Below are positions 40,502 through 64,000 of a stretch of 64,000 bases of DNA, in pieces. This DNA comes from Toxonevra muliebris (lineage: Eukaryota; Arthropoda; Insecta; Diptera; Pallopteridae). The DNA lies in NCBI GenBank assembly GCA_963691655.1, contig OY829326.1, positions 75,509,235 to 75,573,234 of the forward strand, written 5' to 3'. Numbering within the stretch: position 1 is the stretch's first letter; each line of letters begins with the position of its first letter. A program made the translations under genes and the position numbers. The notes beneath the pieces were generated by a model, which worked only from the letters and a program-made list of their open reading frames with translations, had not been told where the DNA came from and did no database searches.

Positions 40502-41569
40502 CTAGACTGCTTCGCCTCTTGTAGTTGGTATCAGCAATTCCTTATCAGGTGTTTGCTTCCGTCTGAATGTAACGTACGTATACAGTAAGCTAGCAAAGAC
40601 GCTAATGTTGATGCCGATACAGTTTAGCCACGAGAAAATGTAATCGCCACCGATGAACATGCCCAAATATGTAACGCATATATTTTTCAGGCATCCAACA
40701 ATGGTGGTGGTTAAAGCTGAGTTGTGTTGTGTACAGAGTATAGTGCTGTATGATAGTATGAAGCCCATAAAGCAACTGAGCAGAAATTGCACTATAAAGT
40801 ACGGATCAGACCAACCGTTGAAAGCCAACGTTTTTTGTAAATCTCCAGTCAAAAACGTTAAGGCCAATGCTGGCACGAACATATACAGCGAATTGTAGAA
40901 CATAAGTCCATATTTGCCAATTTCCGAGGTGTCCAATTTCTTCTTGACGAAAACACCATTCGAGGCCGTGAGCGCATTTGTGATCATCACGTAGGTATAC
41001 CCTTCCATATTGAAAGACAAATCATCCGATGCAGCCACCAATGCGCCGCCAATCATAGCGTAGACGCTAATTTGTACAGCAGTTGATGGACGCACGCCGA
41101 GAATTTTCAATTCCAACAGCATTGTCATTAGTATGGAGAAACGGCGCAGTGCTGCAAACATTGGCAAACTTAACGCTTGCGTGCCACCTAAACCGAACAT
41201 CATATTCCCTAGGAAAATGAGCGGCAGGGGGAAAATTTTCATGAATGTATTACGCGCTAACGGCGGGTATGTAACTAGTTTGATGCGTTTACCCAAACCC
41301 AGTACAACGATGCTCGCCGTCAACTGACCCAAGCTAAGGAACAGAAACGAGGGAAAATGATATGAGGTCAGCACGGTCTTATTGACGACTGTGATCATGA
41401 ACGATGACATCCCGTAGAAGACTGCACTTCCGACTTTCTTGAAATATAGTGAGGCATCTTCCACTTGACGTAACTCCTTCGAGCTAAGACTGGTTGTGCT
41501 GCCGCTGCTACTCGTGGCGGATAGATCAAGTGCTGTGTTTTCATTGCCGCTGCGTGTACCGCCTCCCAT
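40502..41569 (-). CDS. frc: UDP-sugar transporter, SLC35D family (fringe connection)
   Basis: A single-exon frame of 355 codons starts at the ATG at 41569 (MGGGTRSGNENTALDLSATS). Codons upstream in the same frame lack a better ATG. A Ser/Thr-rich cytosolic N terminus is followed by about ten hydrophobic segments: SAVFYGMSSFMITVVNKTVL begins the first, then FPSFLFLSLGQL, PLPLIFLGNMMFGLGGT, a central NGVFVKKKLD loop, and STILCTQHNSALTTTIVGCL with KNICVTYLGM near the end. This matches Drosophila Frc, a Golgi/ER antiporter carrying UDP-glucuronate, UDP-GlcNAc and related sugars, needed for heparan sulfate synthesis and Fringe modification of Notch. The C terminus (TTRGEAV) is cytosolic. An intronless coding region is notable but not suspicious, as the frame is intact. 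Confidence 0.93.
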   Translation of the reverse strand: MGGGTRSGNENTALDLSATSSSGSTTSLSSKELRQVEDASLYFKKVGSAVFYGMSSFMITVVNKTVLTSYHFPSFLFLSLGQLTASIVVLGLGKRIKLVTYPPLARNTFMKIFPLPLIFLGNMMFGLGGTQALSLPMFAALRRFSILMTMLLELKILGVRPSTAVQISVYAMIGGALVAASDDLSFNMEGYTYVMITNALTASNGVFVKKKLDTSEIGKYGLMFYNSLYMFVPALALTFLTGDLQKTLAFNGWSDPYFIVQFLLSCFMGFILSYSTILCTQHNSALTTTIVGCLKNICVTYLGMFIGGDYIFSWLNCIGINISVFASLLYTYVTFRRKQTPDKELLIPTTRGEAV

Positions 41570-44439
41570 TGTAAAGTGAAGTGCTTGTACAAATGCTTTC
41601 ACACAAATTGAGTTGTGTTCTCTTCGCCCCGTCGCGATCCGATAATGTTACTGAAGGAGAGGGGGAAGTGACGATAATCTTATTTTCTTATTCGTTGTTA
41701 CGAAATGGGACTTTATTTTTTATTATATTTTCACTTGATCATGTTATTTTGAGTTCCTCTTTTTTGCAATTAAAAGAAAATTAAAATTGCAGCATTTTGT
41801 TTAATTTTACCACTTTTTTCACTATACAATAAAAATCAACTTGAACCGACGCAGCATTAAATATTTCTTGCCATTTTGACAGTCGGTGGATGACTGAATT
41901 GAATGACAGCTCAGTCTTAGAGTCTTTTCAACTGTCATAGCTCGGCGAAGGTAAATGCAGTAAAAGTACTACTATAGGGAACTAAAATAATTTCCAATTG
42001 AAATACTAACTTCAAAAAATAGATTACCTTTGAATTTTGATGATTATTTTATTTTTTTGTGTATCTTGATTTTAGTAAATTGAAAATTATGTACACGAGA
42101 AAATTAATCGACTGTCAAGTTCAGCTGAGAACAAAATTCAAGTTGGCAACGCATACAATGTTGCCACTAAGCAAGCAACTCCAAATAGCACTCAGACACC
42201 TCTCGGCCGTCCACAGGTCTGTTCACGTGCAGAAAATATGCACAAATTCTTATAAGTTTTTATTAATAAAGTGTTCACGAACCCGAAAATCTTGCGAAAC
42301 AAAGCAAAAATGAGAGAGTAAAATTATGAAAGGAAAAAGTAGCTGGAGGTAAAATTTTTCCTTATAATAATTTTCAGCTATGGAAAAAATAAACGGTCAA
42401 AATAAAAAAAATGTCTAAAAATGCCCAAAAAGGCAAAAAAAAGTATGGTGTTTGGTTAAGTTCAGTAGCATTTATTTATTTTTTTTCAATTAAAATGAGC
42501 GGAAGAAAACATTATTCATTAGAGAACAACAATTGTGGGTGGTTCGATTTTATTAATTTTAATATATTGACAAAAACTTACAACCGCATATTTTTTCCTG
42601 CTTAAAATTAACTGTCAAAACATTTGATCAGCTGCAAATTTCTACTAATTTTTTGCCCCACGTGCATTTAGAAATGTTGAAACATATCTTCGGCGTTCAA
42701 ACAGAAATCACTAAGTCCAAATTAATTTTTTGAATTAGGTCCGCGTTAATAATCTTATATAATTTAAACTACGTAATAAATTCGACTTTTTATGATGCAG
42801 TTTAAAAGTATACGAATGTATATATCAATCTGTTGATTTCTTAAGTTTTTCCAGTGTTCATATCGCGACATGCATTGTATAAACTGATTATCTCACAAAT
42901 TTAAAAAATAAACCTAGTGATTTCTGCTTGAACACCAACGATATATGAAAATTCCAATGCTTTGATTTTAACCTTCAAATGTTCTAAAATTAATTTTAAA
43001 TATAAAATAAATCAATTTGAAATATACAAAAATATAGTTAGGTAATGTTGAACCTCTTTTAGATTAACCAATTCGTCGCCTGAGAATTGATTTGGCGTAT
43101 TTGGTTTCTGGTTAATGTACCTAATTTCGACAAGTTGTTTCAAATGAAACGTTTGTAAAATAAATATATATAAAATACTGACAATATTACTTATCGTGTA
43201 AGAGGAGGAGAATACCTCTTTCATCTCACACCCTCTTTCCAATACAATTTGAGAGTTTCAAGAGGCTACTCTCCACGTTTAAGAGCAGGCATACCAAAAT
43301 TCTACTGATTTTCAAGTGTAAATACAAGGGCTGGATTTAGAAGTATTGACGCCCTAAGCAGTTGTAGTTTTGGGTAGGGGAGAGAGGAGGTAAATCTGTG
43401 ATCACCAAGCTTTCAACCCCAGGCCAGCGTTTGGGCTTTTAAACCTGCACCAGGTTTGTGGAAGGGTTCGTCCTCAATTTTTTCGAAGAATTTTAGACTT
43501 CAAACCCCACTGTGTACTTACAGTGCAGATGGGTCTTCTTTACCATCCATGGTAGTTTATCATAAAAGGCGAATCCCTCGCGCTATTATTAATCAAATGG
43601 GTTTAAATATGTGGCAAATGATTTATTTATTAAAGTTAAATACTGTTATTTCTAGATGGTCACAAAAGCCACCTCAGTTTGCTGCTGCCATTGCTAAAAA
43701 CTAAAAAGTTGTTTTTGCTCGATAACGAACCCTAGTGAGCGGATTGTATTTAAATAGAAAAACTATAAATATCTGCTATTGTTGAAATTAAATAGGTTGA
43801 CGTAGGGAAGAAAATAATTTTTTGAGTCAATATTAACCAAAATAGCAAAAAACTTCAGAAATGCTATCACTGCATATTTGAAAGTTAAGGAGGCTGTACT
43901 AACTACTGGTGTTTAAACGAATAAACCATTAAAAAGGCAATTTGCACACCGATTATTTTGTCCAAGGTGTTTCACTATTAATATGTAACAATATATTTTT
44001 GTTCCTTATCTTTTATTTTAGGATTTTTAAAATATGTAGGCTTTCGTTAAAATGTATGGTCACATCTATTATTTTGTCCTGCAATGTGTTCTTAGTGTAG
44101 TATTATGCATTCGATTGAGATCCAAAATTCATCGATGCAAAGCATTAGTGTGCCTTACTATTTGTTTAGAGCACCTATGCTGTGGTGCCATATGAATATG
44201 GTTTTATTCTATCCACACTCTTCCCATAGTATTGGGTATCAACTACTAAACTTCAAGACGATATCGTGAAAACAGAAAATTTGAAGTAAATATTTGTTCG
44301 ACCTTCCCATTCGTATATAAGTATCATAAATTATAATCTATCTAAATTGCTCGAAATAAAAAATTCGTTTTATTTAGTTATTAAAAATTTATTTCATAAA
44401 GTACGTTGAAACAATTCTCCTGAAATGAAATCACGATTT
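41570..44439. other. Intergenic between frc and the snoRNA host gene
   Basis: The right flank of frc should hold its promoter and 5' UTR. Apart from the transposase-like fragment at 43.46-43.70 kb, no coding or RNA feature was recognised. Confidence 0.4.
43456..43704 (+). pseudogene. Possible pogo/Tigger-like DDE transposase fragment
   Basis: The frame contains CTYSADGSSLPSMVVYHKRR then IPRAIINQMG, resembling the A(S/D)GxxLPPMVVYKxKRIP stretch of DDE1 (CENP-B/pogo-type) transposases. Nothing matching the rest of the domain was found, so this is a short decayed piece and the assignment is tentative. Confidence 0.4.
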
Positions 44440-44562
44440 TAGTCACCTGAGCAAATAAATTTATTTATTCCTCGAGCCATATCTGTAAAACCAAATAAAG
44501 GGATTGCATATTAAAATTGGTTGAAATATTAAAGTGTTTTAATTAATTTTAATAGATATTTA

Positions 44563-44648
44563 AATCAGCAATTTATTTTAGCGTTGGTTTTGGAACAGTT
44601 TTCTTCATAGAATATTTCAAAGCGAGCTGGGTAAGTTGTCATCATTGA
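44563..44648 (-). ncRNA. Box C/D snoRNA, family A copy 1
   Basis: C box ATGATGA at 44645-44639 and D box CTGA at 44568-44565. The guide-like segment TTACCCAGCTCGCT ends at a degenerate D' (TTGA), followed by a C'-like TATGAAGA. The next exon starts 83 nt beyond the D box. The ends are estimated from the boxes. Confidence 0.8.
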
Positions 44649-44811
44649 AAAATATTAATTTGTGTATAAAAAGTTAATATTCACCTGTAAATATTGAAGT
44701 TTAATAATGAGCAAGCAGCAAAATTGTTGCCTTTAAGTCTGAAACTAGGAGGAAAATTCAATTAAAATTGGTACAGAAACGATTTTTATGCAGACAAATA
44801 TGATGGAAAAA

Positions 44812-44878
44812 AATCAGTAAGGATTTTGTGTCATTTAACAGTCAAATGATGGGGAATCCGAAAACAAATCATCATTTA
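44812..44878 (-). ncRNA. Box C/D snoRNA, family B copy 1
   Basis: C box ATGATGA at 44875-44869 and D box CTGA at 44817-44814. It contains TTTTCGGATTCCCC, complementary to the conserved 28S segment GGGGAATCCG. D box to next exon is 76 nt. Confidence 0.78.
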
Positions 44879-45061
44879 GAATGAAAATGTATATATGCAA
44901 TTTGAAGTTATAATTACCTTGAAAAAATTGTTAGCAACGTATCAACACACACCCAAAAGTATTTAAATTCATTTAAGTTTTATCTGAAGCTGCAATCAAA
45001 TAATAAAAAACTTATTTAAATTTTTAAAATAATGTTTTTACAATAAATAGTAAGGATTTAT

Positions 45062-45147
45062 AATCAGCAGTTGATTTTAGCGTTGGTTTTGGAACAGTTT
45101 TCTTCATAGAATATTTCAAAGCGAGCTGGGTAAGTTGTCATCATATA
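45062..45147 (-). ncRNA. Box C/D snoRNA, family A copy 2
   Basis: C box at 45144-45138 and D box at 45067-45064. The flanks TTTATA and TATAAA can pair as a terminal stem. Core sequence as in the other family A copies. D box to next exon is 75 nt. Confidence 0.82.
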
Positions 45148-45379
45148 AAAATACTTTAAATTAAAAAAAAAAAAAATTATAATTACCTAATATCAAACGA
45201 GGCAACTGAAATACTTCTTTGACGTTATACATAATTTTGGACTCGGATCGAAATTTTGACATCAAGCCATTTTTGGTTGAATGTCAACTAACTGAAACCA
45301 AGAAAGAAATAAATAAAGATTAATATTGAAAAATATATTTTAAGAAATCATAAGTGATTTTTTAAAACATATATTTTAT

Positions 45380-45464
45380 AATCAGCAGTTTATTTTAGCG
45401 TTGGTTTGGAACAGTTTTCTTCATAGAATATTTCAAAGCGAGCTGGGTAAGTTGTCATCATTGA
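45380..45464 (-). ncRNA. Box C/D snoRNA, family A copy 3
   Basis: C box at 45461-45455 and D box at 45385-45382. One T is lost in the run between C' and D (the complement of GGTTTGGA rather than GGTTTTGGA); the D'-side guide is unchanged. Confidence 0.8.
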
Positions 45465-45643
45465 AAAATTTATGTTTGCTAAATTATTTATAAAAAGCAT
45501 ATTTATATTTACCTTCAAATATTGTGTGTATCGAATTTGTAGCAACAAATTTATAGACAGCATTGCAAACTGAAAAATATTTTAATATTCAATCATAATT
45601 CGTTCATTATATGTTTTTATACAGAATTATAATTTCGTTAAGT

Positions 45644-45710
45644 AATCAGTATGGATTTTGTGTCATTTAACAGTCAAATGATGGGGAATCCGAAAAAAAA
45701 TCATCATTTA
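45644..45710 (-). ncRNA. Box C/D snoRNA, family B copy 2
   Basis: C box at 45707-45701 and D box at 45649-45646, D box to next exon 77 nt. Its 3' flank (AGTAATCAG on the plus strand) represents the empty site of the foldback insertion found at copy 3. Confidence 0.78.
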
Positions 45711-45856
45711 GAATGAAAATGTATAAATTTATTTTGAAGTTATAATTACCTTATTCAAGTATTCAAGTTTTAATTGAAGCTGCAATGAAACAAAGACAAA
45801 CTTATTTAGTTTTTTGAAATAATTTTTATATAATAAATAAAAAAGTAAAGATATAT

Positions 45857-45943
45857 AATCAGCAAATTTATTTTAGCGTTGGTTTTGGAACAGTTTTCTT
45901 CATAGAATATTTCAAAGCGAGCTGGGTAAGTTGTCATCATATA
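45857..45943 (-). ncRNA. Box C/D snoRNA, family A copy 4
   Basis: C box at 45940-45934 and D box at 45862-45859. TATA-type terminal stem as in copy 2. D box to next exon is 80 nt. Confidence 0.82.
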
Positions 45944-46171
45944 AAAATACTTTAAATTAAAAAAAAAAAAAATTAAAATTACCTAATATCGGTCGAAGTA
46001 ACTGGAATACTTCTTTGACGTTATACATAATTTTGGACTCGGATCCGATTTTTGAAATCAAGCCATTTTTGGTGTAAGTTCAACTTACTGAAACCAAGAA
46101 AGAAATAAATAAAAATTAATATTGGAAAAGCTATTGTTAGAAATCATGTGATTATTTAACATATATTTTAT

Positions 46172-46257
46172 AATCAGCAATTTATTTTAGCGTTGGTTTT
46201 GGAACAGTTTTCTTCATAGAATATTTCAAAGCGAGCTGGGTAAGTTGTCATCATTGA
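46172..46257 (-). ncRNA. Box C/D snoRNA, family A copy 5
   Basis: C box at 46254-46248 and D box at 46177-46174; flanks like copies 1 and 3. D box to next exon is 87 nt. Confidence 0.8.
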
Positions 46258-46433
46258 AAAATTAATGTTTGCTAAATTATTTATAAAAAGCGTTTATATT
46301 TACCTTTAATTATTGTGCATCGAATTTGTAGCAACAAATTTATAGACAGCATTGCAAACTGAAAAATATTTTAATATTCAATCATAATTTGTTCATAATA
46401 TGTTTTATACAGAATATCATTTTGTGTTAGTAA

Positions 46434-47203
46434 CACTGGAATACAGTGAAAATATAACATGAACCAAAGTATGTTTTCTAAGCTAATTCGAGGTCGCGGA
46501 ACACGAAAATAATATTCATTTTATTTTTCTATGGGTAAGTTTTCGAGATATGACAAAATAACGGTTTTTCAGGTTACAGTTTCACTTACAGGCTAATATC
46601 TCATTACCTATAGCTTCTATCGATCTGAGTTATATGTTATAGAAAATATAATTAAATTACGCGTTTATTAATGAATTTTGAGAAAAATATCGAGTTTTCG
46701 AGAATATTTTGTTTTTACTCAATCCTTGATTACTTTGTCATTTTTGATCCGATTGCTATCGTTTTATGCTTAAAATTTTTGTAATGAAATGGTCTATCGA
46801 TTAAAATAATAATAAAACTTTAGATTTCGTGATTACTTTTTGTGAGAAAGAAAACTTAGCCCACAACTTGTGTGAAAATTTCTAAAAAATCACACAAAAA
46901 TTGAACTTTCAACATCTGTATCTCAGTCATTTATAATATCCGATTTTAACAAACTTAGCAGCATAAGACGCGTAATATAATTATAATTCTTATGATATAA
47001 CTGGGATCGGTCGATGCTATAGGTATATAGATATTAGCCTGTAAATAAAACTGTAACCTGAAAAACCGTTATTATGTCATCTCGAAAACTTACCCAAAGA
47101 AAAAAAAATGAATATGATTTTCGTGTTCAGCGTCCTCAAATTAGTTTAGAAAACATACTTTGGTTCATGTTATATTTTTAAAGTGAAATTTTGTATTCCA
47201 GTG
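46434..47203. mobile_element. 770-bp foldback element inside the snoRNA host gene
   Basis: Perfect 12-bp tips CACTGGAATACA / TGTATTCCAGTG extend into roughly 180-200 bp of imperfect inverted repeat on each side, sharing ATAACATGAACCAAAGTATG and GGTAAGTTTTCGAGAT. TAA flanks both ends (46431-46433 and 47204-47206), a 3-bp target duplication of the PIF/Harbinger kind, or TA with a chance A for Tc1/mariner. No coding capacity was seen. The uninterrupted site survives in the paralogous unit near 45643-45649. Confidence 0.8.
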
Positions 47204-47204
47204 T

Positions 47205-47270
47205 AATCAGTATGGATTTGTGTCATTTAACAGTCAAATGATGGGGAATCCGAAAAAAAATCATCATTTG
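47205..47270 (-). ncRNA. Box C/D snoRNA, family B copy 3, abutting an insertion
   Basis: C box at 47267-47261 and D box at 47210-47207; core sequence equals copy 2 apart from minor changes. The foldback element starts only 3 nt beyond the D box, so the next exon is 849 nt away instead of about 76. The snoRNA body is intact but its processing may be altered. Confidence 0.75.
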
Positions 47271-47441
47271 GAATGAAAATGTATAAATTTATTTTGAACT
47301 TATAATTACCTTAAATAAACTGTTATGAACTAACACTCCAAAGTATTTATGTGTATTCAAGCTGCAAAGAAACAAAGACAAACTTATTTAGATTTTAGAA
47401 ATATTGTTTTTATAATAAATAAAAAAGTAAAGAAAAAGTAT

Positions 47442-47528
47442 AATCAGCAAATTTATTTTAGCGTTGGTTTTGGAACAGTTTTCTTCATAGAATATTTCAA
47501 AGCGAGCTGGGTAAGTTGTCATCATATA
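47442..47528 (-). ncRNA. Box C/D snoRNA, family A copy 6
   Basis: C box at 47525-47519 and D box at 47447-47444. D box to next exon is 83 nt. Confidence 0.82.
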
Positions 47529-47748
47529 AAAATAATACTTTAAATTATAACAAAAAAAAATTTATAATTACCTAATATCGATCCACACAATTGACATTCT
47601 TCTTTGACCAAATTTTGGACCAAGGTCCATTTTTTGTCAAATCATTTTTGGTTGAATAAAAAATCACTGAAACAAGGAAAGAAATAAATATTAATATTAG
47701 AAAAAATATTGCTAGATATCATGAGTGATAATTTAAAATATATTTTAT

Positions 47749-47834
47749 AATCAGCAGTTTATTTTAGCGTTGGTTTTGGAACAGTTTTCTTCATAGAATT
47801 TTTCAAAGCGAGCTGGGTAAGTTGTCATCATATA
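47749..47834 (-). ncRNA. Box C/D snoRNA, family A copy 7
   Basis: C box at 47831-47825 and D box at 47754-47751. One base differs in the segment between D' and C'. D box to next exon is 85 nt. Confidence 0.8.
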
Positions 47835-48071
47835 AAATCATTTTAAATACTAACAGCAACAAAACAAGTTAATATATAATTACCTAATATCGAACGAAGA
47901 AGTTGAACTCCGCAGGAAACAATTTTTTTTTTTTTTATATAAATTCCATCATGACATATCAAATATTTGATATTCATACAAAAAAACTGCACTGAAAGCA
48001 AAAAAGAAATAAATATTAAAACTCTGGAATTGAACAAGTCTTTATAAATGATTGCAATTTAAAAACAAATT

Positions 48072-48156
48072 TATCAGCAGTATATTTTAGCGTTGGTTTT
48101 GGAACAGTTCTCTTCATGGTTTATCAAAGCGAGCTGGGTAGGTTTGTCATCATTAA
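48072..48156 (-). ncRNA. Box C/D snoRNA, family A copy 8 (most divergent)
   Basis: C box at 48153-48147 and D box at 48077-48074. The spacer between guide and C' has changed (ATAAACCATGAAGA-like), and the 5' guide flank has an extra base, but CAGCTCGCTTTGA is intact. D box to next exon is 83 nt. Confidence 0.75.
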
Positions 48157-48197
48157 ATTTTGTTTTTAAAAACCATTTATATAAAAAGTATAGTTAT

Positions 48198-48304
48198 GTA
48201 TAGGAAGGAGTGGCCATCGAGAGACACACTTGGCCTGAACGGCCCATTGTGATACCACATAGTTGGACCTACAGTTTAACGCCGATTCCGAACGGCGGTA
48301 AATA
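48198..48304. repeat. GC-rich insert in a host-gene intron
   Basis: About 105 bp of balanced base composition (including GTTGGACCTACAG and CGATTCCGAACGGC) interrupts otherwise very AT-rich intron DNA. It resembles the end of a dispersed insect retroelement as I recall such sequences, but no element boundary or target duplication is visible. Confidence 0.4.
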
Positions 48305-48444
48305 TATATGGGAAACTTACCATTTATATTTGCTTGTATCAACTGCATGCATGACGAAAAATTGGCCCAAAACTATTAAAATAAAAGAGAAGTATTTTTA
48401 GTTTGAATAGTGAAAGTTTAAACAAATCATTTGTTACAAAATTA

Positions 48445-48517
48445 AATCAGTTCTACTATCTAGTTTGAAAAGCTCACATTTTATATTCAAGTTTCAAAAC
48501 AAAAATTTCATCACATT
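48445..48517 (-). ncRNA. Box C/D snoRNA, family C (single copy)
   Basis: C box GTGATGA at 48514-48508 (exact RUGAUGA consensus) and D box CTGA at 48450-48447. Two bases upstream of the D box is CTAGATAGTAG, complementary to CTACTATCTAG, a 28S segment I recall as preceding GCGAAACCACAG. D box to next exon is 75 nt. Confidence 0.8.
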
Positions 48518-48680
48518 TTCAAAATGATTTTAGAAATAATCAAAGCTGTATAAACTTACCTTTACATATTTTAAATGCAAAACACAATTTCAGCACATCA
48601 TTTGGAACTGTAAAAGAAAGAATTGGTTAATTTTACTATTTATTTTGCAAATTAATTTAAAATATGTTTTAATTATTATT

Positions 48681-48748
48681 CAATCAGATATTGTTTACAT
48701 CAAAGTTTTTCAAGAGTAGCAAATAATTTATATATTAAGCATCATGAT
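48681..48748 (-). ncRNA. Box C/D snoRNA, family D copy 1
   Basis: C-like box ATGATGC at 48745-48739, D box CTGA at 48687-48684, C'-like TTGATGT, and a guide TTATTTGCTACT before a degenerate D' (TTGA). The guide is complementary to AGTAGCAAATA of 28S rRNA. D box to next exon is 77 nt. The imperfect C box could mean reduced function. Confidence 0.7.
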
Positions 48749-49063
48749 TTCTCTAGTCAAAAGGAATAACACATCATTCAATTTTATTAAAACATAACAA
48801 AATATTAATTAAAACACTATAGGCAAAATAAAACCGAACAAAATTAAGAATATTTAATATGCTATTATTACTTTTGACAATACATTTTTAACAAAACTTT
48901 ATTGATTTTTTTTTTTAATAATTACCTGTTAGAACACTTTTGTACGACAAATGCATTGCAAATTCTTTTATGTAGTAAATAAAGATGTCTGAAATTAAGG
49001 AAAATAAAAGTTTTTTATTACATTGGACAAAGAACATTAAAGAATTTATATGATTTTAATAAT

Positions 49064-49132
49064 AAATCAGATATAATCTTCATCAAAACTTTTCAAGAGT
49101 AGCAAATAATATAAATATGTAAACATCATGTA
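49064..49132 (-). ncRNA. Box C/D snoRNA, family D copy 2
   Basis: C-like box ATGATGT at 49129-49123, D box CTGA at 49070-49067, internal C' TTGATGA exact. The guide TTATTTGCTACT is identical to copy 1 while the rest has diverged, indicating selection on the guide. D box to next exon is 79 nt. Confidence 0.75.
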
Positions 49133-49305
49133 AAACAGGTAATAAATAAATAATATACTTGTGATTTGACTTACCATTTAAAATTTCTGCTTCAACTATT
49201 TTACTTTCCTTCTTTCTCTTCCTTTGATGTCATCTACAAACAAAGAAAATAACAAATATTTTAGATGTGCAATAAATATTTCAGTGCAATTTTAATTGTT
49301 AGTTT

Positions 49306-49371
49306 AAATCAGTAAAAAATTGACATCAATTTGTATTATTAATCAGCGACGAAAAATAGAAACATCATTTT
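49306..49371 (-). ncRNA. Box C/D snoRNA, family E (single copy)
   Basis: C box ATGATGT (49368-49362), D' CTGA (49346-49343), C' TTGATGT (49329-49323) and D CTGA (49312-49309): a complete C/D'/C'/D order. The guide TATTTTTCGTCG directly before D' matches, as complement, the conserved 18S segment GACGAAAAATA. D box to next exon is 76 nt. Confidence 0.8.
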
Positions 49372-49691
49372 ACTGACTTAAAATATTTAATGAATACAAA
49401 GTATAAAATTACCTTATTTAGAGCAGCTTTCCTAGAGCTTCTAAAGAATGAACTAAAACTGAAATGAATTGAAAAGAAAAAAAAAGAAGAAACCACATCC
49501 CTTCCTGCAAATTGCAGTACCTAGACTCATAACTCTCAATCGAAAAAAAAACACTAATTATGTTTTTAAGGCAAAACTCCTTAACGGAGTTTAGCTTCAT
49601 TCTTTTTTCACACATTCAACTACTACATTTCACATGAATGTATTAACTTAATTTATCAAAATGTTTATGTAGAGACGAAACCTCTAATTTT

Positions 49692-51223
49692 TTAAACGGA
49701 TTCTTGTACTGGTGGCTCATAACCCTCTGGTCTATCAACAACAGCACCTTCAGCTGATACAACAGCTTCAGTCCCCTTGCCGCCGCCATCACCGTGCAAC
49801 TCCAAAAGTTTTGATAAATCGAAACGTGGCTTCTTCAATACTTTTACTTTACGGATGTAAACATCATGCAATGGGTAAATGCGTTGGCATTTCTTCTCAA
49901 TATCCTTAGCAATGGAATCCAAAGCAAGTTTATTCACCAATTGCTTCAAGTCAGAGCTGGTAACATCGTTGGCAATGATTTCACTCATCTTGGTGCGAAT
50001 GTTACGCACTTGTGATTGCTGGGCATAACAAGTCTTGCGCTGCGATTGTTGGTCCTTAGCAGTGAAGCCAATGCAGAAAACACGCAACATATAGCCATCA
50101 GTGGTCTTGGCCTCAACGATAGATTCGATCAAGGTTTGCCATTTTTTGACCATGGACCTGTGGGAGAAGAAATATTTGTAATACTTTGTTATAAATAAAA
50201 CTTACAAAAATACCTAATTTACGTTTTATATTGAGATAATGTCTGCAAACTAATCTGTTGTAAAACTAATTAATATTTTACTCAAGATATTGTTTGTAGT
50301 TTATTCTTGGAGTATCGTAGGGACAAAACATTTGCAATTTTGAATGTTTTGTCTGAATTTTACGTCCATAATTAAATACACTTCAAACACATTTGGACCG
50401 TTTACAAGATGTTTCATTTACCGACGTATACTCTCATTTTTCATAAATTTTCTGTTTTCATACAAAATTATACATTATAATTATACGGTAGCTTGTGAAT
50501 ATCCCAATTGTATCTAATATAACACAAGTGATTAAATCATATAACATTGTTGGCAAAGAAGTGGATAATGAACTGAAGTAACCCTGTCACACAAGCCAAT
50601 TCAACTTTTAGAAATGAAAGAATAAGTTAATCAACGCATTTTTGAGAATTATATATAGGACAAGATTTTACTTTGGCCGAACGATTTTGGAAAAATACAA
50701 TTTTTTACACGAGAAAATATAAAAACTAAGATTTAGTTTAAAATTTGAGTATACTTTTATTATTTTTGTCACTTTTCTAATACAAGCACGGCAATTCAGA
50801 AGTTCACTAGGGCATTTAGCCTTCACTGCTCACCACAGTTCACTTCACATATTCACACTCGAGCCTCTCCGTCTCAACTTACCTGTACTTGTCCGTGGTC
50901 AAATCCATGCCATGGAAGTTGGTTAACACATTACGGTCCTGGACATCCTCAGCAATGAGACGGAACTTGCGGAATGAACGATCAGAATCAGTATCGTTTT
51001 GCAAATCAGCCAATGAGACTTCGAACACGCGCCCCTTCAAGTAGTCAGAAGCGATTTTCTGGCCCTGAGTACGATTTACCAAAGTTTTGCCGATTTGGCG
51101 AGTTACAAACATATTTGGTGCTTTTACATCATACCAATCCTTGCGTGAGAAAGGATCTATAACCTTCTTTTTGCCACCTTTTTTGCCTCCTTTGGAGAGT
51201 CCCTTATTTTTACCGACCGCCAT
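49692..51223 (-). CDS. RpS3A: Ribosomal protein S3a (eS1)
   Basis: Two coding exons, 51223-50883 and 50157-49692, are spliced in phase 2 across a 725-nt intron to 268 residues, the size of the Drosophila protein. The start [20 protein letters not shown] was chosen over an in-frame ATG two codons upstream because it is the conserved eukaryotic N terminus. Further landmarks are [33 protein letters not shown], then [20 protein letters not shown] after the intron and [12 protein letters not shown] at the end. It is a structural protein of the small ribosomal subunit. The large intron was scanned for box C/D snoRNA motifs and none was seen. Confidence 0.97.

Positions 51224-54501: not shown

Positions 54502-64000
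<9,499 letters not shown>

Follow-up and report, generated by a model that had tools for sequence, protein, structure and literature searches.

A probable Uhg-type host gene for box C/D small nucleolar RNAs directly downstream of RpS3A in the fly Toxonevra muliebris

In Toxonevra muliebris (Diptera, Pallopteridae), a stretch of 64,000 nucleotides (nt) from contig OY829326.1 (hereafter the window, i.e., the whole stretch of DNA that was analysed) carries, directly downstream of the ribosomal protein gene RpS3A, what is very probably a Uhg-type non-coding host gene for box C/D small nucleolar RNAs (snoRNAs) that guide 2'-O-methylation. In this reading, 16 short exons alternate with 15 introns from approximately 49500 to approximately 44360 on the minus strand, which is also the strand of RpS3A. 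Such a gene had been proposed in a preliminary description of this DNA, and we favour the same reading because each intron holds one C/D candidate, the spacing is regular, the RNA bodies are better conserved than the exons, and the largest group of candidates (group A) matches the family snR71. The weight of the case rests on anatomy, conservation, and this group A family match. The gene, its first exon, and the fifteen candidates (S1 to S15), which fall into groups A, B, and C and two singletons, are located in the window as follows (LSU = large subunit ribosomal RNA):

44358..49503, minus strand: snoRNA host gene, 16 predicted exons separated by 15 introns; the start is assumed from a pyrimidine tract and the end from AATAAA signals
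49413..49503, minus strand: host exon 1, with an assumed 5' end and TCT-like pyrimidine tracts at 49491-49478
49304..49372, minus strand: S1, C/D candidate, singleton, with CTGA at both D and D'
49062..49133, minus strand: S2, C/D candidate, group C, with guide ATTTGCTACT, complementary to LSU AGTAGCAAAT
48679..48749, minus strand: S3, C/D candidate, group C
48442..48518, minus strand: S4, C/D candidate, singleton, with D guide CTAGATAGTAG, complementary to LSU CTACTATCTAG
48069..48157, minus strand: S5, C/D candidate, group A (snR71/U29-like), divergent copy
47746..47835, minus strand: S6, C/D candidate, group A
47439..47529, minus strand: S7, C/D candidate, group A
47202..47271, minus strand: S8, C/D candidate, group B, with an inserted element from 3 nt past the D box
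46169..46258, minus strand: S9, C/D candidate, group A
45854..45944, minus strand: S10, C/D candidate, group A
45641..45711, minus strand: S11, C/D candidate, group B
45377..45465, minus strand: S12, C/D candidate, group A
45059..45148, minus strand: S13, C/D candidate, group A
44809..44879, minus strand: S14, C/D candidate, group B
44560..44649, minus strand: S15, C/D candidate, group A

The splice sites of the 15 introns (49412..44483) were chosen by eye, after which a script located each of them and verified the GT start, the AG end, and the presence of a C/D candidate. GT...AG ends and one chosen candidate were found in all 15 introns of this by-eye model, which is not to be equated with an independent splice prediction; the fifteen minus-strand segments with a C box and CTGA, one per intron, that had been noticed earlier are recovered in full. 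Between 43900 and 49700 there are 22 TGATG and 21 CTGA sites, and 17 of the TGATG are followed by CTGA 46-119 nt on; the 15 candidates were taken from these, and in intron 3 two TGATG precede the CTGA. TGATG and CTGA are present in 15/15 chosen candidates by selection, and 14 of them also follow a strict pattern, namely, [ACG]TGATG[AT] and then CTGA 50-79 nt on, S3 (TGATGC) being the candidate outside it. In 44440-49521, this strict pattern occurs 14 times on the minus strand and never on the plus strand, compared to a mean of 0.192 and a maximum of 3 in 500 dinucleotide shuffles, and a looser pattern occurs 16 times where 0.70 are expected (300 shuffles). The remaining window contains one strict pair on the minus and two on the plus strand. 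The shuffle control addresses the number of C/D pairs and not their distance to splice sites.

In 14 of the 15 introns, the D box stands 74-90 nt before the 3' splice site, which reproduces, after correction of one 3' site, the 75-91 nt previously given for fourteen of fifteen; the corrected site is that of intron 14, set by eye at 44739 instead of the script's 44745, so that the distance changes from 69 to 75 nt. In 13/15 introns, 40-53 nt separate the 5' splice site from the C box; in introns 3 and 5 the separation is 181 nt and 168 nt, respectively. Intron 3 is some 130 nt longer than usual 5' of the C box. The 5' part of intron 5 is lengthened by a G+C-rich stretch (48200-48320) that by eye resembles a transposon fragment and has no further match within the window. 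The exception in D-box spacing is intron 8, with 848 nt after the D box, because it received the following insertion, without which the distance would be about 75 nt:

46434..47203, minus strand: MITE-like (miniature inverted-repeat transposable element) element of 770 bp in intron 8, with long terminal inverted repeats CACTGGAATAC...GTATTCCAGTG and TAA on either side

A search for further matches to this element within the window found none at E 1e-4. Intron 11 is an uninterrupted copy of intron 8, with 97% identity over the first 108 nt and 90% over the last 77 columns.

The candidates were sorted into five guide groups: A with eight copies (S5, S6, S7, S9, S10, S12, S13, and S15), B with three (S8, S11, and S14), C with two (S2 and S3), and the singletons S1 and S4. 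From S6 onward the introns follow the order A-A-B three times and then A, from which we deduce that a three-intron block of roughly 800 bp (insertion excluded) was duplicated. Between the three blocks, the RNA bodies have a mean identity of 0.958 (0.90-1.00, 9 comparisons), the 5' flanks of 0.81 (9 comparisons), and the 3' flanks of 0.77 (7 comparisons, 2 being set aside for the insertion); the exon mean of 0.53 (9 comparisons, range 0.19-0.91) is too low because some exon pairs are probably not homologous, and four well-aligned pairs reach 0.65-0.91. The RNA bodies exceed the exons in 9/9 block comparisons, the 3' flanks in 7/7, and the 5' flanks in 7/9, with one tie and one lower value. This pattern fits selection acting on the intronic RNAs rather than on the exons. 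The presence of tandem near-copies could also suggest that a tandem DNA repeat or a transposon array has been mistaken for a gene; however, the region has no other match at E 1e-4 in a search within the window, and the singletons S1 and S4 lie outside the repeats yet keep the same spacing, and we give this explanation next to no credence.

Some copies could be functional guides and others duplicates that have lost their function, i.e., the cluster could be partly decayed. The D guides of group B vary between copies and lack a consistent match in ribosomal RNA (rRNA), S5 has 0.85-0.86 identity to the two A copies compared with it, and from 3 nt past the S8 D box, where a terminal stem is expected, intron 8 is taken up by the inserted element. 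On the other hand, CTGA and TGATG are retained by every candidate (as selected), the core guide is identical across 8/8 A copies and 3/3 B copies, and conservation of the bodies surpasses that of exons and 3' flanks. We regard partial decay as rather unlikely.

The best match of all eight A copies in Rfam is RF00479 snR71, with 42.1-48.9 bits and E-values of 8e-6 to 2.5e-4 (search over 8 kb, E up to 10), none of the eight reaching the 60-bit gathering score. The A guide, taken from S6, could be aligned with the snR71 consensus, and the alignment extends over the full model. For group B, S8 and S14 match SNORD101 with 25.7 bits (E 0.12) and 21.2 bits (E 2), compared to a gathering score of 47, and S11 matches snoR60, of the same clan as SNORD101, with 21.2 bits (E 1.3) in the same 8-kb search. 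In a search limited to 131 nt, S8 matches RF00339 snoR60 with 22.2 bits (E 0.011), below the gathering score of 40; the alignment shows UCGGAUUCCCC as common to group B and the snoR60 consensus.

Predicted targets were sought on a panel of eukaryotic rRNA found within prokaryote and virus sequence collections; the panel is therefore heterologous, and 11 of its pieces were used for the shuffle test. The direct pairing test covered 8/15 candidates and the shuffle test the group guides. Since most panel records are devoid of animal-type marker strings, a missing match on this panel means little. The guides of groups A, B, and C and of S4 pair over 11-12 nt with LSU of other eukaryotes. The A guide (S5 and S6) pairs over 11 nt, including one G-U, with LSU GTGAGCTGGGT, one nt from TTGA, in 13/13 records, and would be a D' guide fitting the U29/snR71 site of 28S, LSU GUGAGCUGGGU. 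A D' guide is likewise given for the snR71/U29 site in the accessible part of a Neurospora table (PMC2780460). Group B pairs over 11-12 nt with LSU (T)GGGGAATCCGA in two records, L006 and L014, of which L014 was fetched by that stretch and L006 was not. Group C pairs with AGTAGCAAATA in L015, a record fetched by that very stretch, so that the agreement is by construction; we take AGTAGCAAATA to be the U76 site. The S4 D guide pairs over 11 nt with CTACTATCTAG in L005, which was not fetched by that site. For S1, nothing above background was obtained on the heterologous panel; a target at 18S GACGAAAAAUA, presumed from animal 18S, is absent from the panel matches and unsupported. The U24 and U24b/U76 sites are separate entries in the accessible part of the Neurospora table (PMC2780460).

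A second conserved block, CCAACGCT, is present in 8/8 A copies and is complementary to AGCGTTGG, 32 nt upstream of GTGAGCTGGGT in L007. As a candidate extra contact with 28S, it is found in this one LSU record and is at background level against shuffles (46/60). Regarding the panel itself, L014 (3-188) and L015 (4115-4503) are eukaryotic LSU rRNA pieces in IMG/VR viral contigs, adjoining what by eye resembles phage sequence, and are apparent chimeras. Twelve contigs of GTDB species genomes (L001-L012) match the eukaryotic rRNA pattern, and eukaryotic LSU rRNA was found in all six that were scanned with Rfam (L001, L005, L006, L007, L009, and L012), apparently as contamination; L006 additionally contains a group I intron.

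Several observations weigh against the reading as a snoRNA host gene. No Rfam family reaches its gathering score anywhere in the window, and S1-S4 have no Rfam match up to E 10 over 8 kb. The group B family matches are weak (E 0.12 to 2 over 8 kb). Terminal stems are slightly above chance, with at least 4 bp in 9/15 candidates compared to 6.3 with shuffled flanks (P 0.014 for mean length). The group B duplex stops 4-5 nt short of TTGA, with no clear D' box, and the 13/13 agreement at the A site is by construction because the records were fetched by a pattern holding that site. Shuffled guides equalled or exceeded the observed duplex score in 9/60 cases for A, 4/60 for B, 8/60 for S3, 10/60 for S2, 2/60 for S4, and 44/60 for S1, and the best duplex of S2 lies elsewhere than its proposed site; because shuffled guides often reach such scores on the 11-piece panel, pairing alone proves little. 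Lastly, the longest open reading frame of the spliced host exons spans several of them and has 76 codons, a length also reached in 10/300 mononucleotide shuffles. It could point to a short-peptide or protein-coding gene whose introns hold chance C/D look-alikes, but the 14 C/D pairs where 0.192 are expected, together with bodies more conserved than exons in every block comparison, make this extremely unlikely.

The relation to RpS3A was considered from the region between the two genes. The neighbouring coding exons are:

50883..51223, minus strand: first coding exon of RpS3A, the upstream neighbour, with boundaries set by eye
49692..50157, minus strand: last coding exon of RpS3A (PF01015 Ribosomal_S3Ae)

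The host gene follows the RpS3A stop codon head to tail at a distance of about 190 nt and on the same strand, as the earlier placement directly downstream of RpS3A implied. At the 3' end of the host gene, AATAAA occurs at 44469, 44465, 44393, 44374, and 44208. AATAAA was not found between the RpS3A stop and host exon 1, where, of seven signal variants sought, CATAAA (49669) and AATACA (49644) alone are present; the missing AATAAA would permit read-through. The snoRNA introns may then represent a 3' extension of RpS3A, i.e., one long pre-mRNA with alternative ends and no promoter for the downstream part, for which the short distance to the assumed first host exon and the scarcity of intervening signals speak, as do the fused RpL23A-Uhg7 RNA (PMC5932544) and the mfl/Uhg6 arrangement (PMC1821038) in the accessible parts of these reports. 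However, the TCT-type pyrimidine tracts at 49491-49478 are similar to the TTTCCTCTTTTT stretch that precedes the ATG of RpS3A and may suggest that the host gene has its own promoter, and no splice link from RpS3A to the host gene is obvious by eye, although no search for one was run. An extension of this kind is considered unlikely; for the separate Uhg-type gene, transcription shared with RpS3A is possible, as is a promoter of its own. A further-reaching proposal is very unlikely, namely, that RpS3A and the Uhg gene form an operon-like unit in which read-through and alternative 3' ends would link ribosomal protein output to the amplified U29-type guide, whose CCAACGCT block would make a further contact with LSU AGCGUUGG, some 30 nt 5' of the methylated position, so that the number of copies would determine how fast a step of 60S folding proceeds.

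The closest known systems are found in Drosophila, and what follows is taken from the accessible portions of the cited reports. In Drosophila Uhg genes the introns number up to 16, and nearly every one of them carries one snoRNA; the 16 snoRNAs of Uhg1 include those that alone serve as guides at five rRNA positions (PMC4430873). Like the predicted Toxonevra gene, these genes (Uhg1-5, 7, and 8) produce non-coding multi-intron RNAs in which almost every intron holds a single snoRNA, and the ratio of snoRNAs to sites in Uhg1 is similar; the Toxonevra locus, from another fly, differs in adjoining RpS3A and in being dominated by eight snR71/U29-like copies. At RpL23A-Uhg7 of D. melanogaster, too, the host gene immediately follows a ribosomal protein gene in the same orientation, and a fused RNA was shown by reverse transcription PCR (PMC5932544); the ribosomal protein gene is a different one at the Toxonevra locus, where a fused RNA is possible. 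In mfl/Nop60B (former Uhg6), a gene for ribosome biogenesis has a snoRNA cluster at its 3' end; each intron of the cluster carries one of several tandem isoforms of a single C/D snoRNA, at the position reported for intronic snoRNAs, roughly 70 nt upstream of the 3' splice site (PMC1821038); there are four isoforms there, whereas Toxonevra has eight, in a repeated three-intron block. With snR71/U29 (RF00479), group A shares the D' guide for LSU GUGAGCUGGGU and an alignment over the full model, but its scores stay below the gathering score. No RpS3A-linked snoRNA host gene was found among the titles and abstract openings listed from an open-access library, or in the accessible part of PMC2246290.

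Taken as a mechanism, the favoured reading would run as follows. RNA polymerase II would transcribe the host gene, most likely from its own TCT/TOP-like (TOP = terminal oligopyrimidine) start and perhaps with partial read-through from RpS3A, as in the published RpL23A/Uhg7 case. The short exons would be spliced together without yielding a product of their own, and each of the 15 introns would release one box C/D snoRNA located approximately 75-90 nt before the 3' splice site. Their targets for 2'-O-methylation in rRNA would number about five: for the eight copies of group A the U29/snR71 adenosine of 28S, for the three of group B the GGGGAAUCCGA stretch, for the two of group C AGUAGCAAAU, for S4 CUACUAUCUAG, and for S1 perhaps 18S GACGAAAAAUA. 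Tandem duplication of the A-A-B three-intron block would have raised the copy number. That the gene is transcribed and spliced, that its snoRNAs are processed and direct methylation, and which sites they address in the species' own rRNA are deduced here from sequence; the guide duplexes on their own do not convincingly beat shuffled guides.

Elsewhere in the window, an open reading frame of 366 amino acids at 40502-41602 encodes a UST74c-type transporter whose identity is 85% to the Lucilia sericata protein and 84% to that of Bactrocera latifrons (among the best 120 of 1418 matches), which points to a higher fly. A reverse transcriptase fragment (PF00078) lies at 60391-60954 on the plus strand and a Tc3-type transposase fragment (PF01498) at 62164-62571 on the minus strand.

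The locus would add a well-formed member to a type of gene that is already known, and one of its guide RNAs is present in eight copies. It would also keep an internal record of how such a cluster grows, in which three-intron blocks are copied, exons drift, and guides stay fixed. The transposon-like insertion that breaks the spacing in one of the three B copies would constitute a natural test of whether RNA release depends on how far the 3' splice site lies and on the bases immediately past the D box.

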